Assembly (NCBI GenBank): GCA_028687035.1
Contig: JAQUAX010000008.1
Coordinates: 1-64,000, forward strand
Direction of reading: 5' to 3'
Length of the DNA stretch: 64,000 bases
Origin: Dechloromonas sp.
GTDB lineage: Bacteria > Pseudomonadota > Gammaproteobacteria > Burkholderiales > Rhodocyclaceae
A model generated the notes under the pieces. That model searched no databases. It had not been told where the DNA came from and saw only the letters and a program-made list of their open reading frames with translations. The number at the start of each line of letters is the position of its first letter. The first letter of the stretch is position 1. Positions 13,836 to 60,883 of this stretch are shown here, in pieces. The position numbers and the translations under genes are program-made.

Positions 13836-13859
13836 GTGGTGCCCGGGACGGGACTCGAA
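13836..13859. other. Left prophage attachment site
   Basis: GTGGTGCCCGGGACGGGACT followed by CGAA is identical to the 3' end of the tRNA-Leu gene at 51932-51955. The flanking bases differ on both sides. Confidence 0.9.
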
Positions 13860-46926: not shown

Positions 46927-47222
46927 GCCTTGCCCTTGCCATTGACCAGATCCGCCGCCCTACGTGGTGGTATGAAAACGAGCGGACGCCGAAGCCGAAA
47001 GGCTGCAGCCCGGAGACGATCGAGATGCGGAAGAAGATCCTTGCCTACCTGCGCGAAGCCGGCGGAAAAGTGCCGGCGAGGTCGGTACAGGATCACTTCG
47101 GGTTGAGCAACACCCGGATGTGGCATTACCTGAATGCGATGGTCACCGCCGGTACCGTTCTCAAGTTCAAGCCGAAGCACGACCGCTGCCTGCTGCAGGC
47201 AGCCCCAGAGGTGAAATCATGA
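46923..47222 (+). CDS. Winged-helix DNA-binding protein, 99 residues
   Basis: MRKKILAYLREAGGKVPARS followed by VQDHFGLSNTRMWHYLNAMV reads as a helix-turn-helix with wing. It overlaps neighbours by four bases. Probably an early regulator. Confidence 0.65.
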   Translation: MSLALAIDQIRRPTWWYENERTPKPKGCSPETIEMRKKILAYLREAGGKVPARSVQDHFGLSNTRMWHYLNAMVTAGTVLKFKPKHDRCLLQAAPEVKS

Positions 47223-47491
47223 TCGCAACGAACGAACCTGTGGTCATCATGACACGTCGAGAATTCGACGAGCTGGTCGACCGCGTGGCCAGGCGCGCCG
47301 CCGAGGAAACCGCCCGCCGCCTGCCGGCCAGCCGCCCACAGCACGTCACCAAGACCGACGCCGCGAAGCTGCTGAAGGTCAGCATTCCGACGGTGTCGAA
47401 GATGATCAAGTTCGGCACCCTGTCGCTGAATGACTGCGGTCGGATACCGATCGAGCAGATCGACCGGGCGCTGGAAGCGAGGGCGGCGTGA
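47219..47491 (+). CDS. Excisionase-like HTH protein, 90 residues
   Basis: The C-terminal half (TKTDAAKLLKVSIPTVSKMI, then GRIPIEQIDRALEAR) is a MerR/excisionase-type HTH_17. It is the last phage gene before the cassette array and a plausible Xis for the integrase at 50766. A 19-codon frame (47491-47550) follows with no further support. Confidence 0.65.
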   Translation: MIATNEPVVIMTRREFDELVDRVARRAAEETARRLPASRPQHVTKTDAAKLLKVSIPTVSKMIKFGTLSLNDCGRIPIEQIDRALEARAA

Positions 47492-47546
47492 TGGGATTTA
47501 ACGGCGAAGGTAACAGGCTGGCCGCCCACGAAACGAAACAGGAGCG

Positions 47547-48095
47547 ATGAAGATGGAATCAACCACGAACGACAGCAGCGCCGCTTGCGGCCAGTCCGTG
47601 TTGACCGACGGGTTGGGCATCACCTGCTACACCCTGACCGTGACCAAGGAACAAGCGCAGACCTTGATTCAAGCGACCGAGATTCTGGCGCGGCTTGGGA
47701 TCGGGCAATTCCGCGACGCGCTCGAATGCCTGCCGACGCGGGAGTTTCTGCCAGAGGGCTGGTCAGAAGACATGGACAGCATTGGCCAGTTGCTGTCACG
47801 CCATATGATCGGCGGCATTGACGGCTATCGCTCCAGCCTCGGCATTCACCACAATGACGTGCGGAAGGAGGCCAAGATAGCATGGGACTTATACCAAGTG
47901 CTGCGGCATCGGCTGTCTTGGGATCGCGCTGTCCGTGAGGGGATTGTCGAAAGCGCAGATTCTCCGCGCAAGTGGCCGGAGATGATGCAAACCCACTACG
48001 ACGAGCCGATGAAGGTGAGCGATCAGCCATTGGCGATTGTGATGCCCAACGCCAGCGGTAAGCCGACGGACGCCGCAGGCGGACGGTCGGCTTGA
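47547..48095 (+). CDS. Cassette 1 ORF, hypothetical protein
   Basis: This 182-codon frame starts upstream of the cassette boundary, so its first 22 residues are read from the attC-0 half site. In-cassette starts are TTG 47613 and GTG 47640. The core (TKEQAQTLIQATEILARLGI, then EARLY-type DVRKEAKIAWDLYQVLRHRL) is helical and soluble. The frame ends inside attC 1. No family recognised. Confidence 0.6.
   Translation: MKMESTTNDSSAACGQSVLTDGLGITCYTLTVTKEQAQTLIQATEILARLGIGQFRDALECLPTREFLPEGWSEDMDSIGQLLSRHMIGGIDGYRSSLGIHHNDVRKEAKIAWDLYQVLRHRLSWDRAVREGIVESADSPRKWPEMMQTHYDEPMKVSDQPLAIVMPNASGKPTDAAGGRSA
47560..47618 (+). other. attC site 0 (right half intact, left half degenerate)
   Basis: The 3' part TTGACCGACGGGTTGGGC matches the other sites (L' TTGAC, then R' GTTGGGC at 47612-47618). 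A possible degenerate L'' AACCACGAAC lies at 47560, but no R'' RYYYAAC box is seen. It is the entry point of the cassette array; the cut would be between 47612 and 47613. Confidence 0.65.
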
Positions 48096-48109
48096 CCAAC
48101 AAGTTGTAC
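48044..48109 (+). other. attC site 1
   Basis: R'' GCCCAAC (48044-48050); L'' AAGCCGAC (48060-48067) pairs perfectly with L' GTCGGCTT (48086-48093); R' GTTGTAC (48103-48109). 66 bp. The bases GATGCCCAA at R'' pair with the cassette start TTGGGCATC (47613-47621). Confidence 0.88.
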
Positions 48110-48138
48110 GTCTGGCAACCACGAAGAAAGGAAATGAA

Positions 48139-48564
48139 ATGCTGATTTCAAGACGCGGATTCCTGAAACTTATTAGCGCAGCCCTTGCTTCCGGCGCGAC
48201 CATTCCGGCCATTGCAAAAACGCGAAATCCGTATGTTTCTGAGGGCGAGGCTGTGAGCTACATCGGCCATTGCCCCGGCGGTTTTATTGGCAGCCAACTG
48301 GTGCACAAGGTTGATCCGTGGGATGGCGTTGGCTACCCGGTGCATCTTTGGAACAACGCCTATGGGACACGCCGGGCGACGGAGCGCTACTACGATTTTG
48401 ACCTGTCTAACTTCACACGAGACGTTCCGCATGGGTTCTGGTCGATGCCGGGCAGTGCGAAATACCCGAACGTGCATACCTGGATGAGGGAGCAGCGATT
48501 CGGCGAAACGGTCGCGGAGGCGATGCGCCACCTGAATTTTTCTGGCGTCCGGGCGCCGGCATGA
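48139..48564 (+). CDS. Cassette 2 ORF, Tat-signal exported protein
   Basis: The 141-residue protein starts MLISRRGFLKLISAALASGA with a twin-arginine motif SRRGFLKL and a likely cleavage after AIA. The mature part has YIGHCPGGFIGSQLVHKVDP and HLWNNAYGTRRATERYYDFD. It is unrelated to anything I recognise. AAGGAAATGAA precedes the ATG. Predicted periplasmic. Confidence 0.7.
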   Translation: MLISRRGFLKLISAALASGATIPAIAKTRNPYVSEGEAVSYIGHCPGGFIGSQLVHKVDPWDGVGYPVHLWNNAYGTRRATERYYDFDLSNFTRDVPHGFWSMPGSAKYPNVHTWMREQRFGETVAEAMRHLNFSGVRAPA

Positions 48565-48568
48565 AGAC

Positions 48569-48631
48569 GTACAACGCACTAGCTCAGGCGGACGCCGCTT
48601 GCGGCGTATCGCCTGGAGCGATGGGTTAGAG
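48569..48631 (+). other. attC site 2
   Basis: R'' GTACAAC (48569-48575); L'' GCTCAGGCG (48582-48590) pairs with CGCCTGGAGC (48610-48619) leaving one extrahelical base; R' GTTAGAG (48625-48631). AGACGTACAA pairs with cassette start TTGTACGTCT (48104-48113). Confidence 0.8.
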
Positions 48632-48645
48632 CGCTGGGGTGAAGA

Positions 48646-49038
48646 ATGGAAAAGTGCATGTGGTGTGAAAAGCCTGCAACTCGGTACTGTGACGCAGTGA
48701 TTGGCGTTGAGGCACGAGGCGCAGTACGAAACAAGCAAGGAGGCGTTGATGCGCTGCTTGCTGGTCTTGATGGCGAGATGTGGACATGCGATGCGCCGAT
48801 GTGTGACGACCACGCTCGGCAGGTTGGGCGTATTTCCGGCAAAGAACCGGAAAGCATCGACCATTGCCCGCACCACATTACGCACGGAGAAGAGATATTC
48901 AAGGAGATTGTGATGTTCAAGGACGAGGCCGAAAAGAAACGGCGCAACGCACATGCAGAAATTCGGCGATCACGCATTCGGACAGAGCGCTCTAACGAGC
49001 AAGGTAACGGGCCGCTGCGCGAGGCGGATGGTAAGTGA
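48646..49038 (+). CDS. Cassette 3 ORF, Cys-rich zinc-binding-like protein
   Basis: The 130-residue protein starts MEKCMWCEKPATRYCDAVIG, with CxxC, and a second Cys/His group WTCDAPMCDDHARQVG; together they look like a zinc-binding module. The C-terminal helix is charged. Function unknown. Confidence 0.65.
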   Translation: MEKCMWCEKPATRYCDAVIGVEARGAVRNKQGGVDALLAGLDGEMWTCDAPMCDDHARQVGRISGKEPESIDHCPHHITHGEEIFKEIVMFKDEAEKKRRNAHAEIRRSRIRTERSNEQGNGPLREADGK

Positions 49039-49079
49039 AACGACGGTTGCCGGCGGTCCGGTTGACTGGATTGTTGGGC
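48990..49079 (+). other. attC site 3
   Basis: R'' CTCTAAC (48990-48996); L'' AACGGGCCGC (from 49006) against L' GCGGTCCGGTT with one extrahelical base; R' GTTGGGC (49073-49079). 90 bp. GCGCTCTAA pairs with cassette start TTAGAGCGC (48626-48634). Confidence 0.82.
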
Positions 49080-49107
49080 GTCATTGGGTAACTACGGAGG
49101 AACGGAC

Positions 49108-49458
49108 ATGAAAGACCATGAACTGAAAGAAGCGCACGAAAAGGCGCAAGCATCGCTCATGAACCCGGCGCACCAGGTGTATTTCCGCGCCGGCCTGCTG
49201 GCCTGCCGAGAGCACATAGCGCGATTCGTTGCTGCTCAGAACCCGGAGATTGCGGAGAGCATCCGCGCCAACTGGTGGCCGAATCTTGGCGACGACCCAG
49301 GCGCCCCAAGACTGCTGAGTTTCCACGAAATGATGGACGGAGGAGAGGAAGGCCCATGGACAGAAAAAGAAGTATCGCCCTCCACCGAGGCCCTGCCGAT
49401 CGCGCTCCAATTTTTGACGCCCAACGCAGCGGTAAGCGGGCGCGGCGACGGGCAGTAG
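49108..49458 (+). CDS. Cassette 4 ORF, hypothetical protein
   Basis: The 116-residue protein starts MKDHELKEAHEKAQASLMNP behind GGAGGAAC. It is helical (YFRAGLLACREHIARFVAAQ), then EIAESIRANWWPNLGDDPG and a Glu-rich end that runs into attC 4. Not recognised. Confidence 0.62.
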   Translation: MKDHELKEAHEKAQASLMNPAHQVYFRAGLLACREHIARFVAAQNPEIAESIRANWWPNLGDDPGAPRLLSFHEMMDGGEEGPWTEKEVSPSTEALPIALQFLTPNAAVSGRGDGQ

Positions 49459-49507
49459 AGAAAACGACGGGCGCGTATTCCGCGTCCGGTTGACCAACGG
49501 GTTATGT
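49419..49507 (+). other. attC site 4
   Basis: R'' GCCCAAC (49419-49425); L'' AAGCGGGCGCGG pairs with L' CCGCGTCCGGTT with two mismatches; R' GTTATGT (49501-49507). TGACGCCCAA pairs with cassette start TTGGGCGTCA (49074-49083), 10 bp. Confidence 0.85.
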
Positions 49508-49520
49508 GACTGAGGATGAG

Positions 49521-49793
49521 ATGAGCGAACGATGCAAATACCATGTGTGCGACGAGGACGACGACCACGACCCGGAATGCACCGACTGGCAGATGACGAG
49601 CCGCAACCTCGACAGGGAAGACGCCCCCTACCCAGGCATGGCCGCGGCGTTTGAAGCGCACTACGGCCAAAGCTGGACCGACCCGGACTGGCGGAAGGAA
49701 GCCGCGACGTGGGCAGCGGCATGGAAAGCTGCCCTGTCACATAACGCTGGCAGTAACGGGCCGAGCCGCGACAGCGGCGAAGGTCCGCGTTGA
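49521..49793 (+). CDS. Cassette 5 ORF, acidic Cys/His protein
   Basis: The 90-residue protein starts MSERCKYHVCDEDDDHDPEC, with CxxxxC and clustered Asp/His, then GMAAAFEAHYGQSWTDPDWR. It ends inside attC 5. Possible metal binding. Unknown. Confidence 0.6.
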   Translation: MSERCKYHVCDEDDDHDPECTDWQMTSRNLDREDAPYPGMAAAFEAHYGQSWTDPDWRKEAATWAAAWKAALSHNAGSNGPSRDSGEGPR

Positions 49794-49807
49794 CTGAAAT
49801 GTTGGGC
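49739..49807 (+). other. attC site 5
   Basis: R'' ACATAAC (49739-49745); L'' region TAACGGGCCG; L' TCCGCGTTGAC; R' GTTGGGC (49801-49807). 69 bp. GTCACATAA pairs with cassette start TTATGTGAC (49502-49510), although this R'' differs from the common GCCCAAC, so the pairing is cassette-specific. Confidence 0.85.
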
Positions 49808-49828
49808 GTTTGCCCGAAGGAGAACGAG

Positions 49829-50065
49829 ATGTCCGAAAAAAGCTGGTTCCAAAGCAAGTTCGACAAATTGCCGAAGGATCGCCAAGACCGAATCCGGCGA
49901 CTGCTGGACAACTACAACCCGGAGCCTGTGTTTCGGAACAACGGGGCCGAGCCTGACTGGTCGCATTTGAACTGCCCGATGTGCGGCGGAAGCGGCCATG
50001 TAGATGACGTGACGCCCAACGCTGGCGGTAACGCGACTGAGCGTAGCGAAGGTCGCGTTGACTGA
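49829..50065 (+). CDS. Cassette 6 ORF, small CxxCxGxG protein
   Basis: The 78-residue protein starts MSEKSWFQSKFDKLPKDRQD behind AAGGAG and has LNCPMCGGSGHVDDV, a single CxxCxGxG knuckle. It ends within attC 6. Unknown. Confidence 0.6.
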   Translation: MSEKSWFQSKFDKLPKDRQDRIRRLLDNYNPEPVFRNNGAEPDWSHLNCPMCGGSGHVDDVTPNAGGNATERSEGRVD

Positions 50066-50075
50066 AATGTTGGGC
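50014..50075 (+). other. attC site 6
   Basis: This is the clearest site: R'' GCCCAAC (50014-50020), L'' AACGCGAC pairs perfectly with L' GTCGCGTT, R' GTTGGGC (50069-50075). 62 bp with a TGAGCGTAGCGAAG terminal loop region. ACGCCCAA pairs with cassette start TTGGGCGT (49802-49809). Confidence 0.92.
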
Positions 50076-50093
50076 GGATCTTTGGAGAAAAAG

Positions 50094-50369
50094 ATGGAAG
50101 ACGTTGTACTCAGACATGACCATGAACAGGTGCTTTCGTTGCTGGAAACCGCAAGTGATTACGTGCGCGCCTACAAGTGCGGATGTAACCCGCTTTGGAC
50201 AAAGGACGATGCCAGCAAACTGTTGCGCCAAATTGACGATGCTTTGGCAGGCAGAGAGCCGAAGCCGCCGTGCGACCACAAGTGGGACCCGTGGCCGGTG
50301 GCAGACGAGGGGTGGGTGTGCATGAAATGCGGCGCCCGCGAATACAACGACGAGCCGCCCAACGCTTAG
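50094..50369 (+). CDS. Cassette 7 ORF, Cys-rich C-terminal zinc ribbon-like protein
   Basis: The 91-residue protein starts MEDVVLRHDHEQVLSLLETA. The C-terminal PPCDHKWDPWPVADEGWVCM followed by KCGAREY forms a C-x2-H...CxxC zinc-ribbon-like motif. It ends at attC 7. Unknown. Confidence 0.62.
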   Translation: MEDVVLRHDHEQVLSLLETASDYVRAYKCGCNPLWTKDDASKLLRQIDDALAGREPKPPCDHKWDPWPVADEGWVCMKCGAREYNDEPPNA

Positions 50370-50439
50370 GTGATGGGCCGAGGCAACGCCAGTTGCCGAA
50401 GGTCCAGCGCGAAGCGCGACATCGACCGCCGTGTTGGGC
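50357..50439 (+). other. attC site 7
   Basis: R'' GCCCAAC (50357-50363); inner repeats GGCAACGCCAGTTGCC and TCCAGCGCGAAGCGCG; R' GTTGGGC (50433-50439). 83 bp. CCGCCCAA pairs with cassette start TTGGGCGG (50070-50077). Confidence 0.82.
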
Positions 50440-50478
50440 GGAGTATCACCACCACCGACTTTTGATGAAAGAAAAAAC

Positions 50479-50721
50479 ATGAACACGACACAACAACGGA
50501 TTGCTGCGATTTTCAACGAGTGGGCGCGGCGCTATGCCGAGAACCCCGACGAGTTCGGAGCGATCCTCGACGCTGAAGGAAAGCCAGTTGATGACTACGG
50601 CCAGAATTGCGCGCTCTATTTCGAGAAGATTGCCGACGAGATGGACGCGGCCGGGAAACTGCCACGCCCTGGCATGGTGCCGAAGCCTGCCCCGTGGCCA
50701 GAGCCGCCCAACAAGGAGTAG
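50479..50721 (+). CDS. Cassette 8 ORF, hypothetical protein
   Basis: The 80-residue protein starts MNTTQQRIAAIFNEWARRYA, with FGAILDAEGKPVDDYGQNCA and CALYFEKIADEMD, resembling small phage proteins of unknown function. It ends over the R'' box of a truncated attC. Confidence 0.6.
   Translation: MNTTQQRIAAIFNEWARRYAENPDEFGAILDAEGKPVDDYGQNCALYFEKIADEMDAAGKLPRPGMVPKPAPWPEPPNKE
50707..50713 (+). other. Truncated attC site 8 (R'' box only)
   Basis: GCCCAAC with preceding CCGCCCAA pairs with cassette start TTGGGCGG (50434-50441). No L boxes or GTTRRRY follow before the integrase gene, so the right end of the array has been cut off. Confidence 0.7.
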
Positions 50722-50765
50722 ACGACAAACTGTCCAAATATACAACAAACCGGACACCGCTTCGG

Positions 50766-51791
50766 TCAAGAAATCCTCTTCGCGATATCCGCCGCCGAAG
50801 GGTTGTAGTAAGTCAGCGCCTGGTCGAGCTTCGTCCAGCCGAAAATCTTGCAGAGGTCCATCAGTGCCTGCTGCGCCGGGATGTCGTTCGACTTCATGCG
50901 GCCGGCGATCCATGTGGCCGCTGTGTGCCGGCTGTCGTGGAAGGTGAATCCGGACAACCCTGCCCTGTCCCTGAACTTCCTGAACATCGCATCCAGTGAC
51001 GACGTCTTGACGCCGAAGACTAGCTTCGGATCGAAGCCGCGCATCCGGTTTATCAGACGCTCCGCCTTGGGCGGAAGCGGAACATCGCGCAATGAGGCCT
51101 CGGTGCGGCCGACCTTGTGCGGTGTCGAGCAGTAGCCGGCATAGACGCGGTCCCACGTAAGGCCGCAAAGCTCTCCCGCGCGCATGCCGGTGCGCAGCGC
51201 GACCAGGAACACAATAGCGACGGCCTCTGATACCGTCCGCACCGCCTCACGGCTTGGCCGATACCCCGCCTCGCGCAAGATAGACTTGATCTGCAGCCGG
51301 GTAATCACGACATCCCGATGATCAGGCGCCCGCGGCTTTCGGATGTCTCGCACCGGGTTTCTGGTGACGTATTTCAATTCCAGTCGCGCATGCTCGAACA
51401 CGGCCGAGAGAAGCCCGAGCTCACGCAGGATCGAACCTGCAGAAACTTTACGCTGCCTGGCGTCGCGGAACCGCGCAATATCGGCCGGCTCGATCTTTGA
51501 CATCGGCTTGTCGAGCGGCAGCGATTCGTCGCGCCGGAATGCCTCGAGGCGGATGCGCTCCCAGCGCCGGCCGCGCTTGCTCGGCGTGACCTGGTCGCAG
51601 TAATCTGCCAGCGCCTCATGCAAGGTAACGCAATCGCCGGGCGACTTGTCGAGGCGCTCGCGGATCTCGGTTTCCTTTGCCGCGGCCCATGCCTCAGCCT
51701 CGCGCTTCGTTCGCTTCGTCGCCGACGCGCGCTCGCCAAGCACGTAGACCTGCGCCCGGTAGCCGTTTTCCGTTTTCGTAATCGACGCCAC
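50766..51791 (-). CDS. int: Phage integrase, tyrosine recombinase
   Basis: The 341-residue protein has catalytic Arg in ALRTGMRAGELCGLTWD near residue 200, the HxxR box FTFHDSRHTAATWI near residue 280 and the Tyr in QALTYYNPS near residue 327. The N-terminal part looks like a phage SAM-like/arm-binding domain. GTG start behind GGGGAAACA. It lies 140 bp from the tRNA attachment site, the classic prophage arrangement. It is a phage integrase, not an obvious IntI. Confidence 0.93.
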   Translation of the reverse strand: MASITKTENGYRAQVYVLGERASATKRTKREAEAWAAAKETEIRERLDKSPGDCVTLHEALADYCDQVTPSKRGRRWERIRLEAFRRDESLPLDKPMSKIEPADIARFRDARQRKVSAGSILRELGLLSAVFEHARLELKYVTRNPVRDIRKPRAPDHRDVVITRLQIKSILREAGYRPSREAVRTVSEAVAIVFLVALRTGMRAGELCGLTWDRVYAGYCSTPHKVGRTEASLRDVPLPPKAERLINRMRGFDPKLVFGVKTSSLDAMFRKFRDRAGLSGFTFHDSRHTAATWIAGRMKSNDIPAQQALMDLCKIFGWTKLDQALTYYNPSAADIAKRIS

Positions 51792-51931: not shown

Positions 51932-51955
51932 GTGGTGCCCGGGACGGGACTCGAA
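51932..51955. other. Right prophage attachment site
   Basis: This 24-bp repeat of 13836-13859 covers the 3' end (CCA and T-arm side) of tRNA-Leu. The tRNA gene on this side is intact. The 140 bp between it and int hold no gene; a GCAGT/ACTGC inverted repeat lies at 51851-51868. Confidence 0.92.
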
Positions 51956-58181: not shown

Positions 58182-60883
58182 GGCTGCCCGCCTTTGCGCA
58201 CAGCCTGCGTTTCAAGCTGCTGGTCGCGACGGTGCTGGTCGAGATCACGGTGATGTCGGTGCTGGTCGGCAACAGCCTGCGGCTGATCGACGAGCACCTG
58301 ATCCGCCATGCCGAACGACGGATCACGGCGATCGAACTGGCCTACAAGACCGCCGTCGCGCTGCCGCTGGCCGCCCGCGACTACGCGACGCTGCGCGACA
58401 TCCTGGATGGCTGGCGGCAGGCCGACGACGTCGATTACCTGGTCGTCGCCGACCCGGAAGGAAAAATCCTGGCCGCCTCGGCCTGGCCGGAAGGAAAGCC
58501 GCTGCCGCCGGCTTCCCGGGACTTCCGGGAGCAAGCGGTGCTGCACGTCGTTTTTCCGGTCGACGTGCTCGGCCAGCAGTACGGCACGGTGCACTACGGC
58601 CTGTCGCTCAAATTCCTCGAGCAGGCCCGCCACGACCTGATGATGCAGGGTGCGCTGATCGCGCTGGCCGGCCTGCTGTCGAGCTTCCTGGTGCTGCTCG
58701 GCATCGCCTTCTGGCTGACCCGCCACCTGGTCGGACTGGCCCGGGCGAGCAGCGACATCGCCGCCGGGCATTACCGGACGCCGCTGCCCGCCGCCAGCCC
58801 CGACGAGATCGGCCTGCTGACGCGCAACTTCGGGCAGATGGCGCGGGCCGTCGAGGAACGGGTCGTCGAACTGGATGCCCACCTGTCTCGCCAGCGGGCG
58901 ATCTTCGAGGCGCTCGGCGAAGGCGTCTACGGTCTGGACGGCGACGGGCGCTGCATCTTCATCAACCGCGCCGCGCTCGACATGCTGGGCTTCGCCGAAG
59001 CCGACGTGCTCGGCCGCTCGACGCACGAACTGTTCCACCACAGCCGGCCCGACGGCAGCCCCTACCCGGCCGCCAACTGCCCGGTCTGCCTGACCGTCCG
59101 CGACCGCCAGCGGCGCAGCATCGAGGATGTTTTCTGGCGCAGGGATGGCAGCTGCATCCCGGTGGTGTTCACGGTGACCCCGATGATCGTCGACGGCGAA
59201 GTCCAGGGCAGCGTCGTCGCCTTCCGCGACATGACCGAGATCCACAAGGCCGCGGAAGCCCTGCGCGACAGCAGCGAACGCCTGGTCAGCTTCATCAACG
59301 CGCTGCCCGACCTGGTCGTGCTGAAGGACGGCGACAGCCGCTGGCAGACGATCAACCGGGCCGCCGCCGAAATCCTGCAACTGGGCGATTTTCAGTGGCA
59401 GGGACGCACCAACCGCGAGCTGGCCGAACTGCGTCCGGATTTCCGCGCCTTTCACGATGCGGCATGGCAGAGCGACGAGGCGGCCTGGGCGCACGGCGAC
59501 ATCATGCTGGACATCGAGAACATTCCCGGCCGCGACGGCGAGCCGCTCCTCTGCGAGGTGCGCAAGATGCCGCTGTTCGCCCGCGACGGCAGCCGCAAGG
59601 CGCTGATGGTGATCGCCCGCGACATCAGCGAGCGGCGGCGCAACGAAGCCGAGCTCGAACGCTACCGCCAGCATCTCGAGGAACTGGTCGCCGAGCGCAC
59701 TGCGCAGTTGGCGGTCGCCAAGGAGGCGGCCGAGTCGGCGAACGTCGCGAAGAGCGCCTTCCTGGCCAACATGAGCCACGAGATCCGGACGCCGCTCAAT
59801 GCGATCACCGGCATGGCCCACCTGATCCGCCGCGGCGGCCTGACCCCGGAACAGGACGAGCGCCTCGACACGCTGGAAGCGGCAGGCAGTCACCTGCTCG
59901 ACATCATCAACGCGGTGCTCGACCTGTCGAAGATCGAGGCCGGCAAATTCACGCTCGAGGAAAACCCGCTGCGCATCGACGCGCTGCTGCGCAATATCGC
60001 GTCGATGCTGCAGGGGCGCGCCGAGGCCAAGGGGCTGCGGCTGGACATCGAGGCCGACGCCTTCCCGGCCGACCTGGTCGGCGACGCGACCCGGCTGCAG
60101 CAGGCCCTGCTGAACTACGCCGTCAATGCGATCAAATTCACGGCGCGCGGCGGCGTCACGCTGCGCGTCCGGGTCGTCGAGGAGGACGCGGCGGGCGCCA
60201 TGCTCCGTTTCGAGGTCGGGGACACCGGCATCGGCATTGCGCCGGAAGTCCTCGGCAAGCTGTTTACCGCCTTCGAGCAGGCCGACAACTCGACGACCCG
60301 CAAGTACGGCGGCACCGGGCTCGGGCTGGCGATCACCCGCAAGCTCGCCGAACTGATGGGCGGCGAGGCCGGCGCCAGCAGCACGCCGGGGGTCGGCAGC
60401 ACCTTCTGGTTCACCGCACGGCTGCGCAAGGATGCCGGCGTCCATGCCGACACCGACGGACCGGCGCCCGGCAACGCCGAGCAGGCGCTGCGCCGGGATT
60501 TCCCGCAGCGGCGCATCCTGCTCGCCGAGGACGAACCGATCAACCAGGAAATCACGCTGATGATGCTCGAGGATGTCGGCCAGCGCGTCGATGTCGCCGA
60601 GGATGGCCTCGCCGCCGTCGACCTGGCGACGCGCAATGCCTACGACCTGATTCTGATGGACATGCAGATGCCCAACCTGGACGGCCTCGACGCGACCCGC
60701 CGGATCCGCGCCCTGCCCGGCTACGCCGAGGTTCCCGTGCTGGCGATGACGGCCAATGCCTTCGTCGAGGACAAGTCGCGCTGCTTCGCCGCCGGGATGA
60801 ACGATTTCATCGCCAAGCCGGTCCGCCCGGAAGACCTGTTCGCGACCCTGCACAAGTGGCTCGGCCGGAGCAAGCAGCGCTGA
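58178..60883 (+). CDS. Hybrid sensor histidine kinase with response receiver
   Basis: The 901-residue protein has TM1 (residues 10-32), a periplasmic sensor of about 110 residues, TM2 (about 150-182) and HAMP. Two PAS domains follow (from [20 protein letters not shown] and [20 protein letters not shown]). HisKA carries the H-box [20 protein letters not shown], then HATPase ([20 protein letters not shown]) and a C-terminal receiver with phospho-Asp in [20 protein letters not shown]. It is coupled to the PhnD-like gene. No separate output protein is nearby. Confidence 0.93.

Follow-up and report, generated by a model that had tools for sequence, protein, structure and literature searches.

The question raised by the locus described here is whether a row of small genes in a prophage of Dechloromonas sp., lying between an excisionase-like (xis-like) gene and the phage integrase gene (int), is an integron cassette array and, if so, how its open reading frames (ORFs) are oriented relative to the attC recombination sites. 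The stretch analysed, hereafter the window, consists of the first 64,000 nucleotides of contig JAQUAX010000008.1, and it contains a tailed prophage of ~38 kb with terminase, portal, tape-measure, tail and integrase genes, the ends of which are copies of a 24-bp repeat, the right copy being located in the 3' end of a tRNA-Leu. The region from the xis-like gene to the integrase is occupied by eight attC sites and eight small plus-strand ORFs (Table 1), and the position of this array between phage early genes and the integrase, within the tRNA-Leu repeats, which had been proposed from the letters of the DNA only (the sequence-only reading), is confirmed by gene matches and by the 24-bp repeats. 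The interpretation that we regard as probable is that the prophage carries eight attC cassettes with reversed ORFs, which end at an attI-like site, and that these cassettes would be moved by an integron integrase (IntI) of a host and are predicted to be transcribed by the upstream operon.

The presence of integron-type cassettes within the phage, also suggested by the sequence-only reading, is real based on the pairing of cassette ends, conserved boxes and covariance models. Each of the eight cassettes has one plus-strand ORF, and in 8/8 of them the first bases are the reverse complement of the last over 9-12 nt, with the sequence differing among the cassettes. When the ends were permuted, 4 of the 40,320 arrangements (inclusive of the observed one) attained the observed sum, ties being due to the sequence GTTGGGC, which is common to several cassettes. 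The R''/R' and L''/L' boxes with their extra-helical bases, as described earlier, are likewise seen in all eight sites. A model trained on four sites (attC B, C, F and G) and searched against both strands of the 64 kb gave the next ranks to E, H and A, although A was matched only after its left arm was shortened, and failed to detect attC D. The covariance model R3, built from 17 sites of five phages, recovered all eight window sites at full length, including D (E 0.009) although this site was outside the training set; the proposed check of the array with an attC covariance model is thus answered. Within 89 loci (1.14 Mb), all 28 R3 matches up to E = 1 fall within the arrays of the window and of the phage loci L017, L047, L053, L086 and L099. 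For the same 17 sites, 86.1% of the cells in the alignment are paired versus 72.7% after shuffling and 31-41% with slid partners, the alignment having been fitted to the structure and hence being biased toward it. The earlier count of seven full-length and two partial attC sites requires modification, as the first partial site is in fact complete, giving eight full sites, and the last is the attI-like junction.

The orientation of the ORFs in these cassettes is different from that seen in ordinary integrons. In an ordinary attC, the extra-helical base of the L box is located on the left arm when the ORF-sense strand is read. In the window this base, read on the ORF strand, is on the right arm in 8/8 sites. 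Of 46 ordinary sites, from the integrons of relatives, Vibrio phage p16 and TJE1, it is on the left arm in 42, on the right arm in none and unclear or tied in 4, and in twelve other phage loci it is on the right arm in 57/63 sites (6 unclear), the phage sites being read for this count on the model strand and the bacterial sites on the opposite strand. Further, when the longer ORF (the ORF strand being set by length) was compared with the R3 strand in 103 phage cassettes, 49 were on the same strand, 8 on the opposite strand and 46 undecided, the corresponding numbers for the seven window cassettes among them being 4, 0 and 3. For 40 cassettes from eight loci of ordinary integrons of relatives these numbers are 1, 31 and 8; R3 finds the phage sites on the ORF strand, whereas those in the integrons of relatives are found on the opposite one. 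The reality of the ORFs was tested apart from attC by taking from the 103 phage cassettes the longest ORF of either strand, sense or antisense, and comparing these with the PHROGs; 101 sense ORFs led to 59 families and 73 antisense ORFs to a single family at 1.4e-5. Methyltransferases account for 13 of the 25 families listed, some of them perhaps matched by the same proteins, and further families include a Mom-like protein, RNA ligase, HNH endonuclease and directionality factor. The phage contigs were chosen by integrase, by attC-arm pattern or by attI pattern, criteria that are independent of the direction of the ORFs. A single neighbouring protein was also compared with known families in eight of the contigs: six of these proteins match terminase, tail, helicase or integrase families, one matches a metallo-phosphoesterase and one has no match. 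Judged from their sequence, the window ORFs have a reversed orientation with respect to attC and face the attI-like site, and the usual ORF-to-attC orientation is not found here.

Among 83 rows of integrase relatives (some of which are copies of one contig), an xis match was found in 43, and in 24 of these 43 the ends of xis and int are 6-20 bp apart. L018 and L038, with a gap of 7 bp, represent the empty locus; a single cassette is present at the xis-int junction of L017 (integrase 66%); in L047 (61%) R3 has eleven matches, and a DNA methyltransferase comes last; and L174, a prophage of the same-genus genome G032 (50%), has three attC sites ahead of int. In L053, L086 and L099 the arrays are found near xis-like or ssb-like genes (gene names partly by eye), and no attC array was found in the inserts at five further loci (L039, L046, L059, L067, L070). 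The variable cassette content anticipated for related prophages is therefore present, as they hold other cassettes or none at this junction. The attC-arm pattern led to 17 viral contigs, 13 of them with model matches, and of the internal cassettes 66/80 have ends complementary over at least 7 nt. Some cassettes are shared between phage contigs and are bounded at or near the crossover boxes: a methyltransferase cassette of L047 and L160 (91% over 735 bp) ends exactly at the R'' box in both, a cassette of L164 and L166 (85% over 672 bp) extends from R' to R'' within two bases, and L168 and L170 share a cassette at 79% over 311 aligned bases. In the latter pair (L168, positions 1319-1626), the attC upstream of the ORF is common and the downstream attC is not, as is expected if the upstream attC moves with a reversed ORF. 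Very long arrays were observed in two viral contigs, viz. L156, with 16 attC matches in two opposed blocks, and L199, with 15 attC matches and two attI matches. No match to the window array was found by BLAST against 50,697 phage records, nor by the search with the cassette-8 protein; the cassette-2 protein had a match, at 47%, in one Methylobacterium plasmid.

These observations bear on the alternative that the array is a fossil cluster of attC sites lacking integron integrases (CALIN), i.e. a fragment of a cassette array that illegitimate recombination brought in on one occasion and that is no longer active. Such a capture has been proposed for other phages by Qi et al. 2023 (PMC9892861, in the parts available), there is no intI over the cut-off in the host genome, and a lone attC together with an IntI-like fragment elsewhere in it suggest earlier integron activity. 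However, in relatives the arrays next to intI are forward, the cassettes at one locus, some of which adjoin attI, differ among related phages, and cassettes with edges at or near R boxes are common to several phage contigs; due to this, we consider a fossil origin improbable. The fragment (L002, G000:C11:184960-185127) is an open frame of 58 codons matching only the N-terminus of integron integrases, and is likely an intI remnant. The lone attC (L152, G000:C16 ~58437-58504; R'' GCTCAAC, R' GTTAGAG, E 8.6e-5) is located ~600 bases from DNA that by eye is transposase-like. More host attC sites are possible, as the best 150 of 7649 candidates (model R1) and the best 150 of 9534 (R3) were scored, and weak matches on C4, C1 and C6, without attC boxes by eye, were taken as chance. 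The intI of a complete integron was not found over the cut-off in this genome, and in the genus 47/76 genomes have an intI above it.

The right end of the array provides information on the polarity of the attachment site. Upstream of intI, in 10 of 15 distinct loci, there is an inverted repeat such as TAGACACC-N6-GGTGTCTA, followed by six bases and GTT. The reverse complement of this attI element sits exactly at the last R'' in the phage arrays L017, L053 and L174, which were recovered through their integrase and not through attI. In viral contigs the element pattern was found in 24 stretches, several of them probably by chance, and 13 of the 23 stretches searched had attC matches; in all 13 loci (of which L189 and L194 are near copies) the reverse complement of the element is downstream of the attC matches and on the same strand, and the same strand relation is seen in 2/2 bacterial loci. 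In bacterial L210 the cassette ORF leaves attI, whereas in phages it enters attI, the attC-to-attI polarity being equal in both. As this polarity is the same in phages and bacteria, only the ORFs are flipped. In 199 family genomes, the pattern occurs in one genome at two places, viz. beside intI and beside an intI fragment. In two environmental relatives (L211 and L212, from G034 and G051), intI is ~56% identical to the IntI of L210, and the sequence upstream of it resembles attI1 of class 1 integrons. With regard to the window, the array terminus is the best of all positions on both strands against the attI of an integron in the same-genus genome G040 (21/31; 17/22), and, scored by the best of ten attI, it ranks first among the 1342 GTT sites. 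This terminus can be described as attI-like, and it would be expected to accept cassettes. The designation CALIN proposed earlier is hence correct in that eight attC sites (at least two being needed) are present in a genome without intI over the cut-off, but it understates the array, since the latter appears to terminate at an attI-like site.

A further alternative is that top-strand recombination at a phage TAAC site placed ordinary forward cassettes there tail-first, in which case the ORFs would face the target and the last attC would seem truncated. In the window, L017, L053, L086 and L174, the left end is indeed a complete attC with a phage R'' and the right end halts at R'' AAC, as does the right end of L047. 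However, tail-first insertion would retain the normal relation of ORF and attC, whereas the extra-helical base indicates that the attC has the normal orientation to attI and is inverted with respect to the ORF; this idea, overturned by the extra-helical bases and the bacterial attI of L210, is now very unlikely. It is scarcely credible that the repeats, although they are hairpins between small ORFs, are merely intergenic terminators of the phage operon and not recombination sites, in view of the pairing of cassette ends, the conserved boxes with one extra-helical base, the confinement of the model matches to arrays and the detection by the same model of ordinary integrons beside intI.

A number of points weigh against the interpretation of a reversed array ending at attI. 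The sites on which R3 was trained are phage sites, and outside the window the extra-helical count partly restates the model, its independent part being the ORF strand. The longer ORF is on the other strand in 8/57 decided phage cassettes, possibly as noise, and the comparison locus L221, counted as ordinary, has only an intI fragment. The attC arms diverge fast, and in two of the shared cassettes neither flanking arm is shared. Different upstream sequences are present in 5/15 intI loci; the attI match in the window is to one of the ten attI, and a profile of all ten ranks the site only 80th of ~127,900 positions. Lastly, six other phage arrays were selected by integrase; among them, L047 and L099 are without an attI match and that of L086 is weak and made by eye. 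The 13 array contigs found by the attC pattern are without one on the stretch examined.

According to the interpretation favoured here, IntI made by a host would recombine cassette circles into the phage attI and would also excise cassettes, acting in trans, as no intI was found in the phage-bearing genome itself. The ORFs would then have the same direction as the phage operon, the transcription of which is predicted to proceed through them from the xis side toward attI, and because the phage reads the locus from this side, the reversal may have been selected. The R'' of the left-most attC would be the far half (GTTAAAT) of an original phage attI split by ordinary insertion, and this attC thus needs no special origin. 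In contrast, if an ordinary forward host cassette entered the phage attI, it would lie antisense to the phage operon, which would keep the phage pool separate from that of the host; useful exchange is thus more likely to take place with other phages than with host integrons. Extending this, we incline slightly toward the view that temperate phages have a cassette economy of their own, in which platforms without intI (attI plus an attC array) carry reversed cassettes of phage genes that are recombined by the host IntI, so that phages parasitise host integrons for the exchange among themselves of accessory genes, methyltransferases included, with the cassettes readable in the phage operon and silent behind an ordinary integron promoter. 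If this is true, integron cassettes form two pools separated by orientation, and phages shuffle genes via the host integron integrase without carrying intI, which would supply phages with methyltransferases and other modification genes. It would also offer a direct test of what determines the orientation of cassette ORFs, and virome cassette surveys would have reason to record the ORF-to-attC polarity.

The coordinates of the different features are summarized in Table 1. The excisionase label is based on position and the helix-turn-helix; the PHROG excisionase match, at 2.6e-4, is surpassed by that to a terminase small subunit, the best in PHROG for this gene, and homologues of the gene end beside int in relatives. 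The loop of attC A (47540-47549) contains AGGAG and then ATG, so that the cassette 1 ORF can start within the attC. attC F and one attC from the prophage array L174 have 92% identity over 73 nt. Besides tRNAs, nothing in an Rfam scan exceeded the thresholds.

Table 1. Positions in the window of the cassette array and of the prophage features flanking it
Feature	Positions	Strand	Remarks
Left prophage attachment repeat, 24 bp	13836..13859		Identical to 51932-51955
Excisionase-like helix-turn-helix gene (xis-like)	47222..47491	+	Pfam DUF3853 at cut-off; HTH_17 below cut-off
attC A	47496..47618	+	R'' ATTTAAC directly after xis-like stop codon; end pairing and R3 match
Cassette 1 ORF	47547..48095	+	Alternative start 47640; ORF list
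attC B	48044..48109	+	End pairing and R3 match
Cassette 2 ORF	48139..48564	+	N-terminus resembles a twin-arginine (Tat) signal peptide (by eye)
attC C	48569..48631	+	End pairing and R3 match
Cassette 3 ORF	48646..49038	+	phrog_10082, 8.6e-8
attC D	48990..49079	+	End pairing and R3 match
Cassette 4 ORF	49108..49458	+	ORF list
attC E	49419..49507	+	End pairing, four-site model and R3 match
Cassette 5 ORF	49521..49793	+	ORF list
attC F	49739..49807	+	End pairing and R3 match
Cassette 6 ORF	49829..50065	+	ORF list
attC G	50014..50075	+	End pairing and R3 match
Cassette 7 ORF	50094..50369	+	Weak phrog_6094 match, 0.007
attC H	50357..50439	+	End pairing, four-site model and R3 match
Cassette 8 ORF	50479..50721	+	Weak phrog_32159 match, 9e-4; stop codon within attI-like site
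Lone R'' box of last cassette	50706..50712	+	Complement provides GTT core at attI
attI-like site	50710..50740	-	Expected crossover G^TT, 50712
Phage tyrosine integrase	50766..51791	-	phrog_1, 3.7e-46
Right attachment repeat, in tRNA-Leu	51932..51955		Exact copy of the 13836 repeat

The occurrence of a cassette array in a phage is not in itself novel. The sequence-only reading knew of no well-described phage with such an array as part of its early operon, but phage CALINs and integrons are described in the available parts of Qi et al. 2023 (PMC9892861). Those phages resemble the window in having attC arrays in phage genomes, with CALINs lacking intI, and, like the related phage arrays examined here, they include methyltransferase cassettes; recombination with attI1 was positive for five of the six attC sites tested, and reversed ORFs are not described in the parts of that paper available (PMC9892861). 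Two of those phages, tested in this work, look ordinary, viz. Vibrio phage p16, whose six attC matches are opposite to mostly plus-strand ORFs, and TJE1, with one match (which may differ from the published site) opposite to the ORFs; phage H101 gave no match. It is thus the polarity, rather than the array in a phage, that looks new, and no printed report of phage arrays with reversed ORFs beside attI was found in the literature searched, which lacked most subscription papers and bioRxiv. The reverse integrons of Treponema (PMC3607928, PMC6557892, PMC7691350, as far as their available text goes) also show an atypical orientation within an integron. However, in them intI is flipped and the cassettes are in normal relation to attI, whereas in the window the ORFs are flipped relative to both attC and attI, and an intI transcribed in the direction of the cassettes is lacking, as no intI was found in the genome. 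Single reversed cassettes are also known, e.g. symE in Xanthomonas, which in the available text of PMC12444791 is an exception among forward cassettes; its ORF, opposite to the cassette promoter (Pc), has an atypical direction as in the window, but in the phages examined here nearly whole arrays, and not lone cassettes, are reversed. The closest likeness in attI form, attC form and cassette size is to the sedentary chromosomal integrons of the same genus (e.g. G032, G040), which differ from the window in that intI is present and the ORFs are forward. The genome G032 contains both kinds, with an ordinary integron (L223) and the reversed prophage array L174 present in one genome.

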